From Chloroflexota bacterium (GTDB lineage Bacteria; Chloroflexota; Anaerolineae; Caldilineales; Caldilineaceae): a DNA stretch of 26,818 nucleotides. Positions 1 through 26,596 of this stretch are shown piece by piece. Numbering within the stretch: the stretch's first letter is position 1; the number at the start of each line of letters is the position of its first letter. The stretch is from positions 1 through 26,818 of the forward strand of contig QEUW01000115.1 of assembly GCA_003577005.1 (NCBI GenBank), read 5' to 3'. The position numbers and the translations under genes are program-made. Below the pieces are notes generated by a model, which had not been told where the DNA came from, ran no database searches, and saw only the letters and a list, made by a program, of their open reading frames with translations.

Positions 1-1565
1 TTGTCGCCGGTGATCATGACGATGCGCTGGACCCCGCTGCTGCGCAATTGCTGCACGGTGTTGACAGCCTCGGGCCGCAATGTGTCGGCTGCGGCCAGAA
101 AGCCCACCACTTCCCAATCGCGGTCCTCTCCCAGGGTATCCTCGACCGTGCTGCGCCGTACTACCAGCATGGCCGTCTTGCCTTTGCGTTGGAGCGCCGT
201 ACCAACCATGCGAATGGCGGGTGAGAGGTCCATCGCCTCGCTCATAAAGAGTTTGTCATTGCCAATATAGATGGTCTCTTTGTTGTCGCCGCGGTCGAAG
301 CTTGCCTGGATGCCGTGCCCTGCAATAGCGTGAAACTCTGCCGGCGCCTCCAGGTCGATGCCTGCTTCTCTGGCCTTCTCGACGATGGCGCGGCCGATGT
401 GGTGTTCGCTGCGCAATTCGGCGCTGGCGGCCAGCCGCAGCAATTCCTGCTCGGTGTAGTCGTTGAGCGGGCGTACATCGGTCACCATGACTCGGCCGGT
501 GGTGAGCGTGCCGGTCTTGTCAAAAGCGAAGGTGTCCACCTCGGCCATCTTTTCCAGATAGGCGCCGCCTTTGAAGAGGACGCCGCCGCGCGCCGCCGCC
601 GCAATCGCGCTGAGGATGCTGGCCGGGGTGCTGATGATGAGCGCACATGGGCTGGCCACCACCAGCAGGGTCATGGCCCGGTAGAGCGTATCGCTAAACG
701 CTTCGTTTGAAAAGAGCTGGGGAATGAGCATGGCCAGCAGCGTGGCGCCGATCACCGCATAGGTGTAGGGTGCGCTAAAGCGGTCGATAAAGCGCTGGGT
801 CGGCGAGGCGTCCTGGCGCGCTTCTTCGACGAGGCGGATGATTTTGCTGAGGGTGCTCTCCGAGGCCAGCTTGGTGACCTCGATCTCCAGCGCGCCTCCC
901 CCGTTGATCGTCCCGGCGAAGACCGGGTCACCAGTTCGCTTCGCTACGGGGACGCTCTCACCGGTGATGGAACTCTGGTCGATGTTGCTCGCTCCCTTGC
1001 TCACGACGCCGTCGACGGGCAGCCGTTCGCCCGGGCCCACCAGCACAATCTCCCCGATCTGGATGTCATCGATAGGGCGTTCGACCTCGGTTGCCCCCTG
1101 GCGGACGCGGGCGGTTTCGGGGCGGAGGACGGCCAACGCTTCGATGGCCTTGCGCGTTCGCTCCATGGCAAAGGTTTCCAGCGCACCGCTGAGGGTAAAA
1201 AGAAAGAGCAGCAGCGCGCCCTCTTCCCATTCACCAATGAGCGCAGCGCCGAGCGCGGCGGTGATCATCAAAAAGTCGATGTCAAGTCTGCCCTTTTTTG
1301 CTTCCTCAATTGCACCCATCAAACCGGAGTAGCCACCGGCAAGATAGGCGACGAGCGCCACCAGGAGCACAGCCCAGCCCGGCAGGAACCCTGTGGCGCC
1401 GCCGATCCACCCGGCCAGCAGCGCAACCAGGGTGATCAAGGCCAGCCAGAGTTCGAGGTTTGTACGCCAGTAGGCGAGAAAGGGGGTCGAGCCACCGGTG
1501 GTTTGGAGCGGGGCGGCAGCCGCAGGCGAAGACTCCCTCTGTGAAGATGCAGTCTGTGTTGTCAT
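1..1565 (-). CDS. P1B-type metal-efflux ATPase (SPC motif), C-terminus beyond window
   Basis: An open frame runs from ATG at 1565 to the window edge (521 complete codons). It encodes a heavy-metal P-type ATPase that pumps a transition metal across the cytoplasmic membrane. Visible motifs are the actuator TGES at residue 201, the transmembrane metal-site motif SPC at 305-307 (not CPC), the phosphorylation motif DKTGT with Asp349, and TGD at 519-521, where the window ends. The hinge GDGxND and the last membrane helices are missing only because of the window edge. There is no N-terminal CxxC metal-binding domain; hydrophobic segments start near residue 35. The SPC motif is typical of the P1B-4 group (Co/Fe exporters such as CtpD and PfeT). 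The nucleotide-domain motif reads SEHH (386-389) where SEHP is usual. It lies 6 nt after a Fur/PerR-like gene, which suggests iron efflux; other metals remain possible. Confidence 0.93.
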   Translation of the reverse strand, partial: MTTQTASSQRESSPAAAAPLQTTGGSTPFLAYWRTNLELWLALITLVALLAGWIGGATGFLPGWAVLLVALVAYLAGGYSGLMGAIEEAKKGRLDIDFLMITAALGAALIGEWEEGALLLFLFTLSGALETFAMERTRKAIEALAVLRPETARVRQGATEVERPIDDIQIGEIVLVGPGERLPVDGVVSKGASNIDQSSITGESVPVAKRTGDPVFAGTINGGGALEIEVTKLASESTLSKIIRLVEEARQDASPTQRFIDRFSAPYTYAVIGATLLAMLIPQLFSNEAFSDTLYRAMTLLVVASPCALIISTPASILSAIAAAARGGVLFKGGAYLEKMAEVDTFAFDKTGTLTTGRVMVTDVRPLNDYTEQELLRLAASAELRSEHHIGRAIVEKAREAGIDLEAPAEFHAIAGHGIQASFDRGDNKETIYIGNDKLFMSEAMDLSPAIRMVGTALQRKGKTAMLVVRRSTVEDTLGEDRDWEVVGFLAAADTLRPEAVNTVQQLRSSGVQRIVMITGD

Positions 1566-2633: not shown

Positions 2634-3404
2634 ATGCCGAAGTCTGCAAATGATCGAAGACACTTTATCATTGTGTCGGTGCTGATTGCGATTGGCACCG
2701 TGGTGCTCTACTGGTTGCTGGAAACGGTACTGCCGCTGCCGGCGCAGGCGAGCGTCGAGTCGCTGACCATCGACCAGTTGATCCGCTGGCACCTGTGGCT
2801 GATCGCTTTTCTTTTTTCGTTGGTCGTTGTCTTTATGCTCTATGCCATCATCATCTTCCGCCGGCGTGAGGGAGACGACACGGAAGGCGAACACTTTGAA
2901 GGCAACACGACGCTGGAGATTCTATGGACGGCCATCCCGCTGGCGCTGGTAGTGATCTTTGCCTTTATCGGCATCGACACGCTCAACCGGGTCGTCTTTG
3001 AAGATCCAAACGAGGTAACGGTGAAGGCGGTGGGTTTTCAGTGGGGCTGGCGGTTTGAATACCCCACTGGCGTGCAGAGCCAGGAGCTCGTGCTGCCGGT
3101 GGATCGCCGCGTGCGGATGGAACTGGAGACGCAAGATGTCAACCATGCGTTCTGGATTCCCGAATTCCGCGTCAAGCAGGATCTGTTGGCGGGCCAAACC
3201 AACGAGTTACGGTTTACACCCACGATGACCAGCGCCGACTATGAAGCCGAGCACGGCCGCGAGATCCGGCTGGTCTGTGCTGAACTGTGCGGTCGTGCCC
3301 ACTGGAGTATGTATGCAGTCGTCAAGGTCGTGCCCGAGGCGGAATATACCGCCTGGCTGGACGAACAGTTTGCCAGCCAGGCGCCGGGAGTGGCGCAGAA
3401 GTAA
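2634..3404 (+). CDS. coxB: Cytochrome c oxidase subunit II (CuA)
   Basis: Subunit II accepts electrons from cytochrome c through its binuclear CuA centre on the outer face of the membrane. ATG 2634 is preferred (256 aa; GGAG about 10 nt upstream) over an in-frame TTG at 2610. Hydrophobic segments are at about 11-33, 52-76 and 93-117. The soluble domain carries the aromatic patch QWGWRFEYP (136-144), the first CuA ligand His171 in VNHAFWIPEF, and the CxxxCGxxHxxM motif giving Cys215, Cys219, His223 and Met226. There is no fused cytochrome c domain, so a separate electron donor is expected. The next gene, subunit I, follows after a 97-nt spacer that contains a long hairpin. Confidence 0.96.
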   Translation: MPKSANDRRHFIIVSVLIAIGTVVLYWLLETVLPLPAQASVESLTIDQLIRWHLWLIAFLFSLVVVFMLYAIIIFRRREGDDTEGEHFEGNTTLEILWTAIPLALVVIFAFIGIDTLNRVVFEDPNEVTVKAVGFQWGWRFEYPTGVQSQELVLPVDRRVRMELETQDVNHAFWIPEFRVKQDLLAGQTNELRFTPTMTSADYEAEHGREIRLVCAELCGRAHWSMYAVVKVVPEAEYTAWLDEQFASQAPGVAQK

Positions 3405-3410
3405 AAGATT

Positions 3411-3470
3411 GAGAGACTAGAGATAGAGAGACTAGAGCCAATCCCTCAGTCTCTCTATCTCTAGTCTCTC
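3411..3470. repeat. Hairpin element 1: 23-bp perfect arms, heptad-phased
   Basis: Arms 3411-3433 and 3448-3470 are exact reverse complements over 23 bp with a 14-nt loop. Internally the element reads in words of 7 or 8 bp (for example AGAGACT at 3412, 3427 and, as its inverse AGTCTCT, at 3448 and 3463). It occupies most of the spacer between subunit II and subunit I. There is no T-run, so it is unlikely to be a terminator. Confidence 0.9.
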
Positions 3471-3501
3471 TCGAATAGCGGCGGTATAGGAGACAAACGT
3501 T

Positions 3502-5367
3502 ATGTCGCTGATGGATTTAGGGTTGGTGCGTGGCTTAGTAGGTCAGGCCCTGGGAATGGTTGCGGGCATGGCGCTGGCGATGGTGATCCGCCTGGCAGCG
3601 GGGATGCCGGCGTGGGCGGAGGAGCCGGTGCTCGTCAGCGGTATTCTGGTGGGAGCAATTGGTTTTCTCATCGGGGTGGGCGCGATCACCGACTGGTCCA
3701 AATGGTGGGTGGGCAAAGAGACGCCCTTTATCCACGGGCCACCGGTGGGCAAGCCGGCCTGGGTGCGCTACTTTAGTGTCGATTACAACCATAAGATCAT
3801 TGGCATCCAGTATGGTGTCACTGGGTTGCTGATGATCATGATCGGCGGTGGTTTTGCGGTCATCTTTCGCACCGAACTGGCGCGCGCCGGGCTGCAATTT
3901 TTGGGTGAGAACACCTATAACACGGTGATGAGTCTGCACGGCTGGGCTGCGCTCTTTGGCATTCTGATCGGCATTGGCGGCATGGCGAACTATGTGGTGC
4001 CGCTCATGCTGGGCGCCGAGGACATGGCCTTTCCCCGGCTCAACGCCTTTGCCTACTGGATCAATGTCCCTGCGATCGTACTCTTGCTGGGGAGCGCTTA
4101 TTATGGCTGGGATGCCGGTTGGACGGTTTATCCTCCTTTGAGCACTATTGGGCCGGCAGGCTTTCAGTTTGTCTTTTGGGCGATCTTCTTGTTGGGCTTC
4201 TCTTCCATTCTCGGTTCGCTCAACCTGATTGCAACTATCTTGCTGATGCGCCCGCCGGGGATGAGTCTCTTCCGCATGCCCATCTTCTGTTGGGCAGTGC
4301 TGGCGACGAGCTTTATCCAGTTGACGGCGACACAGTCTATCGCTACCTCCTTCCTGATGCTCTCCATGCAACGTCTGCTGGGGATGGGCTTCTTCGACCC
4401 GGCCAAGGGAGGCGAGCCGCTGCTCTTCCAGCATCTCTTCTGGTTCTATTCGCACCCGGCGGTTTACGTCTTTGTGCTGCCGGGGCTGGGGATCATCAGC
4501 GAGTTGTTGCCGGTCTTCGCACGCAAACCGCTCTTTGGCTATCGGTGGATTGCGCTGTCGAGCATTGGGATTGCGCTGATCGGCTTTATCGTCTGGGGCC
4601 ACCACATGTTTACCTCGGGCTATGCCCCCAACCTGCGCATCTGGTTTATGCTCTCGACCTTGTTGGTGGCTGTGCCGACCGGCGTGAAGTTCTTCAGCTG
4701 GTTAGGAACGCTCTGGGGTGGCAAGCTCGAGTTCCCCACGCCGATGCTCTTTGTGCTGGGCGCCATCTCGGTCTTCCTCATCGGCGGCCTTAGCGGCCCG
4801 ATCCTGGCGACGGTGGCGTCGGACTTGCCTTTGCATGACAGCTACTTCGTGGTGGGGCACTTCCACGGCACCATCTTTGGCGGCTTTGTCTTCCCCTTCT
4901 TTGCGGCCATCTATTACTGGTATCCAAAGATCACCGGTCGCATGTATAACGAGACGTTGGGCAAGATCCACTTCTGGATCATGATGCCGGCTTTTTGGTT
5001 CCAGAGCATCGGCCAGATGACCGTCGGCACAATGGGCATGCGCCGCCGCATCGCCGACTATGAGCAGGCGCTGGGCGGCATGGTCAACAGCAACCTGGGC
5101 GCCGTTGAGGTAGGCCACATTGTCATCACCATCGCCGCCTATGCTATCGCCTTTGGCGTCTTGCTGATGATCTACAATCTCTTCAACAGCGCTGATGTGG
5201 GCGAAGCGGCCGGCGACAACCCCTGGCGTTCGCGTTCACCCGAATGGCAGATCCCATCACCCGTACCGGAACACAGCTTCGCCCAACCCATTGCCGTGGT
5301 GGGCGAACCCTACGACTACGGTTTGCCCGGCAATTATGTGGCGGCGGCAACGGCTGGAGATGACTGA
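3502..5367 (+). CDS. coxA: Cytochrome c oxidase subunit I, A2-type, with N-terminal extension
   Basis: This 621-residue protein is the catalytic haem-copper subunit that reduces O2 and pumps protons. Ligands visible are His146 (low-spin haem), His318, His367 and His368 (CuB), and His453 and His455 in GHFHG. Tyr322 of HPAVY would be the cross-linked Tyr. The motif is YSHPAVY (316-322): the D-channel Glu of HPEVY is absent and the Tyr-Ser pair is present, which defines the A2 subtype. K-channel Lys396 is kept in PTGVKFFSW, and Asp174/Asn181 match the D-channel entrance. The usual first helix (near DYNHKIIGIQY, 94-104) is preceded by about 90 residues with two extra hydrophobic stretches (about 9-33 and 43-63). 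ATG 3502 has AGGAG about 8 nt upstream. Confidence 0.96.
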   Translation: MSLMDLGLVRGLVGQALGMVAGMALAMVIRLAAGMPAWAEEPVLVSGILVGAIGFLIGVGAITDWSKWWVGKETPFIHGPPVGKPAWVRYFSVDYNHKIIGIQYGVTGLLMIMIGGGFAVIFRTELARAGLQFLGENTYNTVMSLHGWAALFGILIGIGGMANYVVPLMLGAEDMAFPRLNAFAYWINVPAIVLLLGSAYYGWDAGWTVYPPLSTIGPAGFQFVFWAIFLLGFSSILGSLNLIATILLMRPPGMSLFRMPIFCWAVLATSFIQLTATQSIATSFLMLSMQRLLGMGFFDPAKGGEPLLFQHLFWFYSHPAVYVFVLPGLGIISELLPVFARKPLFGYRWIALSSIGIALIGFIVWGHHMFTSGYAPNLRIWFMLSTLLVAVPTGVKFFSWLGTLWGGKLEFPTPMLFVLGAISVFLIGGLSGPILATVASDLPLHDSYFVVGHFHGTIFGGFVFPFFAAIYYWYPKITGRMYNETLGKIHFWIMMPAFWFQSIGQMTVGTMGMRRRIADYEQALGGMVNSNLGAVEVGHIVITIAAYAIAFGVLLMIYNLFNSADVGEAAGDNPWRSRSPEWQIPSPVPEHSFAQPIAVVGEPYDYGLPGNYVAAATAGDD

Positions 5368-5370
5368 TGA

Positions 5371-5440
5371 ATGGTTAATGGTTGATGCTCAATGGTTAAC
5401 GGTTGACCATTGAGCATCAACCATTAACCGCTAACCATTG
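5371..5440. repeat. Hairpin element 2: ten heptads, 23-bp perfect arms
   Basis: The 70 bp are ten consecutive 7-bp words, all beginning with A (such as ATGGTTA and ATGGTTG; the second half carries their inverses). Arms 5373-5395 and 5407-5429 are exact reverse complements over 23 bp, and the 11-nt loop can pair further. The element fills the gap between the subunit I stop codon and the ribosome binding site of the next gene. Confidence 0.92.
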
Positions 5441-5450
5441 TGGAGGCCCA

Positions 5451-5654
5451 ATGAACTCAAGACGAGCGGCGGCATACCGGTTCAGTTCCATGATTGCGCT
5501 GGTTCTGGCGGTACTGACTGGGATCGAATATGTGGCGGCGTTGTACCACGCCGGGGCAGTGATCATGTTTTTGCTGGCGTTGGCCAAAGCCTATTTTGTA
5601 GTGAACTTTTTTATGCATATCTCTCGCCTCTGGCGAACGGATGGAGGACACTAG
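5451..5654 (+). CDS. Cytochrome c oxidase subunit IV (prokaryotic type)
   Basis: A 67-residue protein with two membrane helices (about 13-30 and 35-55) and the typical second-helix pattern ALAKAYFVVNFFMHISRLWR. Small subunits of this kind sit in the membrane part of bacterial aa3/caa3 oxidases and are thought to stabilise the complex. ATG 5451 follows TGGAGG (5441-5446) at normal spacing; an upstream in-frame extension would read through the palindrome and is rejected. Subunit III starts 3 nt after its stop codon. Confidence 0.88.
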   Translation: MNSRRAAAYRFSSMIALVLAVLTGIEYVAALYHAGAVIMFLLALAKAYFVVNFFMHISRLWRTDGGH

Positions 5655-5657
5655 CTC

Positions 5658-6323
5658 ATGGCAGTCGCAACACCGACACTGGAACACGGTCACGCCGTAA
5701 AAGCCGCCCCTGCCCATGGGCATGTCGAGCACGGTCATGGCGACAATTATGCCGTTGCGTGGCGCTACAATCGCCTCGGCCTGTGGCTCTTCTTCCTCTC
5801 CGAAGCCTTTTTATTTGGCGCGCTGTTGGCCACTCGCTTTTATCTGTGGCGGGAGGACGGCGTCGTTACCCGCCCGGAACTCGACCAGGTAGTAGGTCTC
5901 ATCGTCACCTCTGTGCTCTTGTTGAGCAGCTTCTCGATGAACCTGGCCGAGACGGCAATCGAACACGGCGACCGCAAGACTTTTTTGCGCGGTCTGGTTG
6001 TTACCGCCGTCCTGGGCCTTATCTTTATGGGTGGCGTCATGATCTTCGAGTGGGGTCTCGTGCCGGCCATCTATGAAGGCCATCTGACGCCTTGGGGTGA
6101 CAAGTATGGTGCAGTTGTCTTTGCCATGACGGGGATGCATGCCCTTCACGTGATCAGCGGCGTGATCTTTATCGCCATTGTCTGGAACCTGGGCCGCAAG
6201 GGGAGCTTTTCGCCTGAACGCCACTGGGGCGTGGAGGCCTGCGCCATCTACTGGCACTACGTGGACCTGGTCTGGATCTTTTTCTATCCCGCTCTATATC
6301 TTATTGGTCATGCGGTACATTGA
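5658..6323 (+). CDS. coxC: Cytochrome c oxidase subunit III
   Basis: This 221-residue membrane protein matches the five-helix form of subunit III, which stabilises the catalytic core. Recognisable segments are NRLGLWLFFLSEAFLFG near residue 37 and the C-terminal YWHYVDLVWIFFYPALYL. The N-terminus is His-rich with several HGH motifs in the first 30 residues, which could bind metal non-specifically. ATG 5658 has GGAGGA (5643-5648) overlapping the end of the subunit IV gene, so translation is probably coupled. Confidence 0.95.
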   Translation: MAVATPTLEHGHAVKAAPAHGHVEHGHGDNYAVAWRYNRLGLWLFFLSEAFLFGALLATRFYLWREDGVVTRPELDQVVGLIVTSVLLLSSFSMNLAETAIEHGDRKTFLRGLVVTAVLGLIFMGGVMIFEWGLVPAIYEGHLTPWGDKYGAVVFAMTGMHALHVISGVIFIAIVWNLGRKGSFSPERHWGVEACAIYWHYVDLVWIFFYPALYLIGHAVH

Positions 6324-6376
6324 CGTAGATGCGTAATGCGTGATACGTAATACGCATCTACGTATCACGCATTACG
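6324..6376. repeat. Hairpin element 3: interleaved inverted repeats, heptad-phased
   Basis: Beginning directly after the subunit III stop codon, the sequence runs in 7- or 8-bp words that each start with CG. Two inverted repeats interlock: ACGTAGATGCGTA (6323-6335) with 6351-6363 (13 bp), and CGTAATGCGTGATACG (6332-6347) with 6361-6376 (16 bp). They cannot form as simple nested hairpins; a transcript would choose one or form a pseudoknot-like fold. Confidence 0.9.
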
Positions 6377-6390
6377 GATTCCAGAGTATC

Positions 6391-7338
6391 ATGCACCCAC
6401 TGCTCCAGGCGCTTTTCTCTTCGTGGGATTGGCGTATCGATGTCACACTCATGTTGCTCGGATTGGGCACGCTCTATGTAGTGGGTTGGGTGCGCTTGCG
6501 TCGTCGCAGCAACTACCGTAAACTCGCGAGCCGAGGGAAGCTGGCAGCCTATCTGAGTGGTCTGGTGATCTTGGCGATTGCGCTTATGTCGCCGATTGAC
6601 CGGCTCGGGGGTCAGCTTTTTTTTATGCACATGATCCAACACAAGTTGGAAATCATGGTAGCGGCGCCGCTGGTCTGTCTCGCCAATCCTTTCCCGTTTA
6701 TGATGTGGGGGCTGCCTACCCCTGCTCGGCGACGGGTGGCGGCGCTCTTTACACACGAATCGCCTGTTCGTAGCGTGCTGAGCCGCGTCACGAGTCCGGG
6801 GGTGGCTTGGTTTATCTTTATTACGTTCTATATGGGCTGGCATGACCCTGGTCTTTACAATCTAGCGCTCTACTACTCGTGGGTGCATGATCTACAACAT
6901 GTGACCTTTTTTGTCTCAGCCCTCTTGTTTTGGTGGCATATCACCAATGCGGCGCCCTATATTCATGGACGGCGGTCGGTATGGGGACGCCTTGCTATGC
7001 TCATTGGCGTCATTCCGGCGCAGATGATCGCCGGTATCATCATTGCCACGTCGGGCACGGTCCTGTACACCTACTATGCCAGCATCCCCCGTTTTTGGGG
7101 TTTTAACGTGCTGGAGGACCAGGCCATCGGTGGCATGATCATGTGGACGCTGAGCAGTGAAATGGTTGTCTGGGCAGCGGTCTTTTTGCTGGGGGGGCTG
7201 TTTGGCGGCGCAAAGGCCGCTCCCGGCCCCGTGGCAAACTGGGACAGCGAAGAGGCAATGGTGGCGCCCGGTTTGGAACATCGAGTGGTCCAAAATCGTT
7301 GGCGCAGGCTGGCCCAGGCTCGCACCGAGGCCCGTTAG
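6391..7338 (+). CDS. ctaG: CtaG-family oxidase assembly protein (caa3 type)
   Basis: A polytopic membrane protein of 315 residues from ATG 6391. Segment FFMHMIQHKLEIMVAAPLVC is the family hallmark, followed by further helices with conserved His (GWHDPGLYN, WVHDLQH, WWHITNAAPY). In Bacillus, CtaG is needed for assembly of the caa3 oxidase, probably at the copper delivery stage. An in-frame GTG at 6340 lies inside hairpin element 3 and would add 17 residues; no clear ribosome binding site decides, but ATG 6391 gives a normal N-terminus. It sits between subunit III and the FixH/YtkA-like gene, as expected for an oxidase assembly cluster. Confidence 0.9.
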   Translation: MHPLLQALFSSWDWRIDVTLMLLGLGTLYVVGWVRLRRRSNYRKLASRGKLAAYLSGLVILAIALMSPIDRLGGQLFFMHMIQHKLEIMVAAPLVCLANPFPFMMWGLPTPARRRVAALFTHESPVRSVLSRVTSPGVAWFIFITFYMGWHDPGLYNLALYYSWVHDLQHVTFFVSALLFWWHITNAAPYIHGRRSVWGRLAMLIGVIPAQMIAGIIIATSGTVLYTYYASIPRFWGFNVLEDQAIGGMIMWTLSSEMVVWAAVFLLGGLFGGAKAAPGPVANWDSEEAMVAPGLEHRVVQNRWRRLAQARTEAR

Positions 7339-8885: not shown

Positions 8886-8953
8886 GTAGGTGCGGTTTCC
8901 ATACCGCACGTCTCTGCCATACAAGGCGTGTGCGGTGTGGAAACCGCACCTAC
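8886..8953. repeat. Nested palindromic element between SURF1 and ctaB
   Basis: Arms 8886-8909 and 8930-8953 are reverse complements at 23 of 24 positions with a 20-nt loop. Each arm is itself a small hairpin (TGCGGT with ACCGCA), so the element could fold as one long stem or as two short ones. It resembles dispersed intergenic palindromes of the REP type, but no second copy lies in this window. Confidence 0.85.
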
Positions 8954-20930: not shown

Positions 20931-20968
20931 AAGAAAGGGACCTGGCCGTACGGCCAGGTCCCTTTCTT
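20931..20968. terminator. 38-bp perfect palindrome, bidirectional terminator
   Basis: The 38 bp (centre between 20949 and 20950, AAGAAAGGGACC...GGTCCCTTTCTT) are a perfect palindrome. On the minus strand it ends in five T residues; on the plus strand the T-rich end is weaker. It separates the lipoprotein gene from the minus-strand small transcription unit and could stop both. Confidence 0.85.
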
Positions 20969-20974
20969 GTGTTG

Positions 20975-21025
20975 GTCCGGTAGCATCCCGCTAGAGGGCA
21001 AGCCCCCGAGGTGATGCTACCGGAC
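20975..21025 (-). repeat. 13-bp-arm hairpin over the end of the small ORF
   Basis: GTCCGGTAGCATC (20975-20987) and its exact complement (21013-21025) enclose a 25-nt loop with its own GGGC/GCCC stem. It covers the second half of the 18-codon ORF and its stop codon and sits 6 nt before the terminator palindrome. Confidence 0.8.

Positions 21026-26523: not shown

Positions 26524-26596
<73 letters not shown>

Follow-up and report, generated by a model that had tools for sequence, protein, structure and literature searches.

The SPADE survey describes tandem heptamers as the periodic repeats found most abundantly between genes across a wide range of prokaryotes, with no clear clue to what they do (PMC6344855). 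The heptameric repeats GGGAATC of Xanthomonas and GGGGA(C/T)T of Nostoc are 7-bp intergenic words (Rehm et al. 2015, PMC4692102); in the portions of that paper at hand, the G-rich strand lies on the sense side after stop codons and on the antisense side before open reading frames, and for Xanthomonas, 70 and 75 inverted heptad pairs, convergent and close together, are recorded. The TAACTGA direct repeats of Beggiatoaceae are intergenic heptamers of sporadic distribution (MacGregor 2015, PMC4679880, in excerpt). Among palindromes, the repetitive extragenic palindromes (REP) carry GTAG and CGTC tags, as the title of PMC3733652 has it, and template switching is presented as a homogenizer of inverted-repeat arms in the available parts of PMC7202029 and PMC8604942. 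Here we describe a cytochrome oxidase (cox) operon in a 26.8-kb window, that is, the whole stretch of Caldilineaceae (Chloroflexota) DNA that was analyzed, with the gene order coxII-coxI-coxIV-coxIII-ctaG. Three of its spacers hold palindromes (elements E1, E2 and E3) that are built of 7- and 8-bp words and are mutually unrelated in their letters. Our results suggest, with a probability that we put at slightly better than even, that in these elements the 7/8-bp intergenic repeats of many bacteria take a palindromic form, with arrays born by slippage, mirrored by template switching and spread within the genome.

All three palindromes are genuine and lie far outside chance expectation. Their hairpin scores (23, 25 and 18, respectively) exceed the best scores of 40 Markov copies of the full window (10-13), and local Markov shuffles, a check named beforehand in the original prediction made for this DNA, never matched the score of any element (0/2000 for each). 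A scan of the whole window at a loose threshold returned E2 and E3 as the only 7/8-bp arrays, and 20 shuffled windows gave a single array altogether. The elements and the genes of the operon are as follows:

E1: 3408..3471, no strand; palindrome in the coxII/coxI spacer, of 7- and 8-bp words (GAGACTA, GAGATAGA)
E2: 5359..5440, no strand; heptad array (5359-5436) and palindrome in the coxI/coxIV spacer, with words such as GGTTAAT, GGTTGAT and GCTCAAT
E3: 6323..6379, no strand; two interleaved palindromes in the coxIII/ctaG spacer, with words such as GCGTAAT and GCGTGAT
coxII: 2634..3404, plus strand; matches COX2 and COX2_TM; stop codon TAA at 3402-3404
coxI: 3502..5367, plus strand; matches COX1; stop codon TGA at 5365-5367
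coxIV-like: 5451..5654, plus strand; matches COX4_pro
coxIII: 5658..6323, plus strand; matches COX3; stop codon TGA at 6321-6323
ctaG: 6391..7338, plus strand; matches Caa3_CtaG

The original prediction placed the palindromes correctly in their spacers. Its arm lengths (23, 23 and 13 plus 16 bp) hold for E1, where the arms at 3411-3433/3448-3470 are exact over 23 bp; in E2, the arms at 5373-5396/5406-5429 are exact over 24 bp (28 bp at 96%), and in E3, exact 18-bp arms (6332-6349/6359-6376) are interleaved with exact 13-bp arms (6323-6335/6351-6363). The first arm starts 6 nt past the coxII stop in E1 and 5 nt past the coxI stop in E2, and E3 sets in at the coxIII stop itself, with its first arms 0-8 nt beyond it. 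All three elements are G-first, with more G than C in each left arm, and the predicted folds have energies of −44.9, −44.4 and −29.5 kcal/mol. The proposed common 7-bp build is not strict. E2 is indeed a run of 7-bp words that all keep one register, with an autocorrelation of 0.66 at lag 7 that none of 2000 shuffles reached at any lag from 5 to 15, and E3 shows the period fairly well (0.52 at lag 7, reached by 20/2000 shuffles); E1, which mixes words of 7 and 8 bp, gives 0.31 at lag 7 and 0.52 at lag 15, that is, 7 + 8 (19/2000 shuffles). Thus, the 7-bp tandem unit of the short tandemly repeated repetitive (STRR) and long simple sequence repeat (LSSR) types is present in E2 and E3 and absent from E1, and the intergenic location of these types is common to all three elements, which fill their spacers.

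To place the elements among relatives, we used samples of four genomes, denoted G005 (ACE_CHL9; 822 kb), G108 (392 kb), G001 (354 kb) and G220 (same family; 400 kb). The closest relative found is G001 (Caldilineaceae metagenome-assembled genome CHL12, locus L001), with a coxI identity of 89% to the window. The stretches of G005 and G220 were selected independently of matches; because GGGGAYT matches were already known on the contigs that supplied G108, and E2 matches on some of those that supplied G001, densities in these two are biased upward. In each of the four samples, period 7 is the commonest among approximate tandem repeats, with 65 arrays in G005, 49 in G108, 8 in G001 and 16 in G220, and a Markov copy of the G005 sample contains no arrays at any period. 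Period 7 also leads in 62 cox loci from outside Chloroflexota (1.0 Mb), with 11 arrays, followed by period 18 with 4. Hairpins of heptads or octads number 57 in G005 and 53 in G108 (110 in 1.21 Mb) and 7 in G001, giving a total of 117, some of which (e.g. L119 6783 and L168 15913) do not look like word arrays although they exceed the 7/8-bp threshold; in the 400 kb of G220, we found four hairpins of comparable strength, one of them heptad. The search of related genomes envisaged in the original prediction found such hairpins abundantly in G005 and G108 and sparsely in G001 and G220. Tandem heptads are thus widespread, and palindromy is a trait added in certain lineages. A palindrome pattern of G-first GGGGAYT words occurs in 3 of the 199 genomes of the class (overlapping matches: 8 in G005, 52 in G108 and 4 in a third genome, G128), and the corresponding C-first pattern has no match in G005, G108, G128 or G001.

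Two observations on tandem arrays belong here. The G220 loci L241-L260 contain tandem heptads of up to about 120 bp, nearly free of palindromes. Cox loci of other phyla contain heptad or octad arrays, some as facing pairs (L029 3005-3255 and 4463-4529, L015 6038, L018 7424, L019 10979, L064 11845 and L067 3-79).

The elements are not specific to cox genes. They follow ahcY, ettA, mutL and many further genes, and the cox spacers of G001 lack a palindrome at all three positions, on which grounds cox-specific regulation was rejected; the special role in oxidase subunit ratio that had been suggested is not supported. The cox locus of G005 (L005) carries three spacer palindromes of its own, made of other words, and E2 DNA has 13 matches elsewhere in G001 and one in a further genome, G006, among 11 genomes searched. 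The samples contain several words each (22 distinct words in G005, 12 in G108 and 6 in G001) and not one fixed word as in STRR/LSSR repeats. A 14-mer common to another hairpin of the same sample was found in 42/57 hairpins of G005 and 48/53 of G108, which does not support setting dispersal aside in favor of a generating mechanism, as the original prediction had done. A common degenerate heptad consensus, NNANTGG, was considered and rejected: its information over 143 arrays (4.19 versus 2.29-2.37 with permuted columns) fell, on 47 collapsed words, to 3.07, compared to 2.61-3.32 in 20 controls of composition-matched real 7-mers.

In 30 of 54 hairpins, the best match of an arm was its own partner and not an arm of the same word family, against 6.4 expected, in a test that is conditional on an own score of at least 17 and hence biased to the own arm; by genome, the partner was best in 15/19 cases in G005 and 15/35 in G108. 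The proposal of unrelated letters with a shared build is supported, and there are signs that one arm was copied from the other. When mismatches between arms are read as sense RNA in tandem spacers, 44 are G:U and 67 are A:C (p = 0.036), a direction opposite to a G:U excess, and this absence of G:U enrichment favors copying at the DNA level over selection on RNA pairing. The mismatch rate is flat along the stem (0.044-0.071) and uninformative. Among 98 loops of the relatives, there was no clear common core, the enriched k-mers being the arm words, so that the interior is not conserved as in miniature inverted-repeat transposable elements; GACGA is mildly enriched (14/98 loops versus 5.8 in shuffles).

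The arrays obey a marked orientation rule. Genes in the relatives were called with a simple, crude open reading frame/hexamer script, by which 140 of 187 arrays in three genomes lie outside genes; with 47 arrays inside called genes and two at contig ends excluded, 138 intergenic arrays remained. In 115 of these, the G-rich strand points 3'-ward from the nearest gene. It leads away from the gene in 53/56 arrays near starts and in 62/82 near stops, including 15/18 in convergent spacers. Neighboring arrays form facing pairs, 33 of them G-first and one C-first, with 7 pairs on the same strand; such inverted pairs are of the kind reported in Xanthomonas, where the published cases contradict the earlier assertion that known heptads are tandem and not palindromic. 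By eye, four of the facing pairs in G005 consist of different word families, which makes the orientation rule independent of palindromy. The hairpins follow it as well (98 G-first, 15 C-first and 4 equal among the 117). In tandem spacers, G-first hairpins start at a median of 3 nt past the stop and within 15 nt in 49/63 cases, and ten C-first hairpins lie at a median of 42.5 nt; the typical order is stop codon, G-arm, loop, C-arm and the region where the next gene starts. For the remaining intergenic hairpins of G005 and G108, the G-first preference is only mild (46 versus 31, with 8 equal).

One family of G005, AATCTCC (TAATCGCC ... GGCGATTAGGAGATT; L123 8206, L132 2809, L142 19524, L144 11355, L150 9800 and L126 5974), is C-first and forms an exception to this rule, farther from stops; similar words are found in the coxIII-ctaG element of G005, within its loop.

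At orthologous gene ends, palindromes made of unrelated words occur in some relatives and nothing in others. Matches to the cox locus were obtained in 45 of 46 genomes of the family, and in the best 30 loci, read and tallied by eye, a heptad/octad palindrome occupies the coxI-coxIV spacer in 8 and the coxIII-ctaG spacer in 3. The coxI-coxIV spacer can be aligned in five relatives with 86-95% identity. Two have GATGATGG octads, one has a mixed form and another has GAGGAAGG octads in both arms; the fifth (L220), which is 92% identical to the GAGGAAGG carrier, has an empty site. After coxII, ahead of a shared flank, different 8-bp hairpins were seen by eye, under the scan threshold, in G226 and G229, with an array in G228 and nothing in G225. 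Downstream of ahcY (this gene and ettA were named by NCBIfam), a palindrome of own words was found in 6 of 17 usable genomes, G005 included, and an array in two more (the truncated loci of G229 and G235 were dropped, and G232, with arms 80 nt apart, was not called by the scan); downstream of ettA, there was a palindrome in 4 of 18 genomes, again with G005, and arrays in several others. Among the controls, the site after metK gave one palindrome and one octad array in 15, and none of 29 readable loci had a clear heptad palindrome after ctaG, most spacers there being short. Because the query sites were chosen for an element in G005, the recurrence at ahcY and ettA is suggestive only. The longest strings common to two genomes at one site have a median of 6, the same as in shuffles (6); those common to two sites within one genome measure 24, 11, 7 and 5 in four genomes.

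Taken together, these results can be cast as a three-step model. Replication slippage would create and homogenize tandem words of 7 or 8 bp in free DNA next to a gene end; short-range template switching, that is, fold-back copying at near-palindromic arms, would then produce an inverted copy with word order kept; and copying of word arrays among the spacers of one genome would yield a dictionary of its own, turning over faster than the flanking genes. Most surviving arrays would be those whose G-rich strand points away from the gene. In the mRNA, the result would be a long hairpin directly past the stop codon that might provide a modest separation or protection of cistrons; such a role of the elements in RNA is possible but unproven, and a letter-specific function is unlikely. 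We also entertain a bolder and distinctly less probable extension, namely, that Caldilineaceae gene ends keep palindromes of 7/8-bp words and their letters are swapped wholesale between species. Under this scenario, the length of the words, the mirror symmetry, the G-first arrangement and the spacing from the stop would be maintained, and genome-wide homogenization would sweep a species-specific dictionary through the sites past stops, with selection seeing structure only.

Several findings weigh against the model of slippage, mirroring and spread. Words are clearly recurrent between sites in only two of the four genomes, and no 14-mer is shared among the seven hairpins of G001; in G108, an arm has its best match in its own partner in fewer than half of the cases; and E1 lacks a 7-bp period. 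The 47 arrays inside genes (as judged by the crude caller) and the 20 of 82 stop-proximal arrays that face the wrong way run counter to the survival rule, and a single word family (AATCTC/AATCGC) accounts for 10 of the 15 C-first hairpins, with 9 in G005. Independent insertions rather than word replacement could also account for different words at one site. Moreover, slippage, template switching and copying alone leave the orientation bias unaccounted for, especially in convergent spacers; avoidance of G-rich sense RNA ahead of starts would cover the start side and not those spacers.

The alternative that survives best, unlikely as we consider it, is selection for an RNA hairpin past the stop irrespective of its letters, as a barrier to 3'-5' decay, an RNase III site or an insulator of cistrons, with heptads as mere raw material. 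The closeness of G-first hairpins to stops, the stable predicted folds of E1-E3 and the recurrence of different words at the same gene ends (by eye, more often after ahcY and ettA than after metK) would all be expected in this case. Against it stand the lack of a G:U excess among mismatches and the absence of all three elements from a relative as close as G001, and the comparison of gene ends itself is blunted by the choice of query sites and by unequal spacer lengths between these and the controls.

We regard as quite improbable that the elements are mobile repeats of the REP/REPIN type moved by a REP-associated tyrosine transposase (RAYT, Y1). They are intergenic, palindromic and multicopy in G005 and G108, and Y1_Tnp is present in 6 of 8 genomes of relatives. 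However, in hairpin-rich G005, Y1_Tnp has a single match, which is weak and partial (it covers positions 64-120 of 121, E 1.1e-4), and the spacers of cox, ahcY and ettA in G002 and G003, where the matches are strong, contain no heptad palindrome; there is no clean correlation between Y1_Tnp and the elements. Furthermore, each genome has many unrelated word families, the loops have no core in common, and of the tags GTAG and CGTC, neither occurs in E1 or E2, with GTAG lying inside an arm of E3.

Intrinsic transcription terminators, which like these elements form stable hairpins shortly past stop codons, are more improbable still. At least six T in the next 12 nt follow 8/63 tandem G-first hairpins versus 11/40 other hairpins, and convergent spacers hold 32/85 of the other intergenic hairpins (G005 and G108) versus 18/102 intergenic heptad hairpins (three genomes), with thresholds that differ between the sets; E1-E3 are located inside one operon and are not followed by a T-tract. 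The least probable source is a reverse transcriptase, telomerase-like or other, acting as a template-copying generator, which the G-rich 3' ends facing away from genes might recall by their likeness to telomeric additions. RVT_1 has no match at E 0.001 in G005, G108 and G128, where GGGGAYT palindromes are present, and 13 of 20 genomes give a match, palindrome-poor G220 among them. Such a generator is rejected within RVT_1 detection; a polymerase diverged beyond RVT_1 might still serve.

The window has further features. At gathering score, the single Rfam match in the window is a tRNA (26524-26596), with none on E1-E3. A hairpin with 16-bp arms before a UbiA gene (8886-8953, GTAGGTGCGG...CCGCACCTAC) resembles a GTAG-tagged REP, and a similar GTAGGTGCGG hairpin occurs in the G005 sample. 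Upstream of a Sigma70_r2 gene (18898), the segment 18600-18670 contains two inverted repeats that interlock (18605-18615/18643-18653 and 18626-18636/18658-18668), show an 18-bp period and possibly form mutually exclusive hairpins. At 20931-21025, a perfect loopless palindrome with 19-bp arms is followed by a hairpin with 13-bp arms.

Caldilineaceae offer a natural experiment: palindromic heptads abound in some genomes and are almost missing from another member of the family that has tandem heptads, and at orthologous sites the words are swapped or, in one case, the site is empty. If structure indeed persists without sequence, ordinary conservation searches would miss a layer of bacterial 3' untranslated regions. 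The abundance of heptamers and the inverted heptad pairs of Xanthomonas are already known; for heptad palindromes with mirrored arms and many words, dictionaries specific to a genome and word replacement at orthologous stops, our searches of open-licence papers gave no description. Like REP sequences, the elements are intergenic multicopy palindromes, but REP have a conserved tag and a fixed sequence (PMC3733652, in the part available), and here the letters are free and the word length is constant. Template switching at quasipalindromes likewise makes inverted-repeat arms alike, as far as the accessible text goes (PMC7202029, PMC8604942); it is a mutation process and not an element, and is proposed here to act jointly with heptad slippage in many spacers. 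The TAACTGA repeats of Beggiatoaceae, as described in the excerpt (PMC4679880), are not palindromic, unlike the elements reported here. The heptamers of SPADE share with them the period of 7 and the intergenic location, symmetry and orientation being outside the available passages of that periodicity survey (PMC6344855). The closest resemblance in detail is to the heptads of Xanthomonas and Nostoc, with whose orientation, as given in the portions of PMC4692102 at hand, ours agrees, and the GGGGA(C/T)T words of Nostoc recur in G005, G108 and G128; compared to what those portions describe, the elements of Caldilineaceae stand apart in that each genome has many word families, the arms mirror each other in word order and orthologous sites carry different words.

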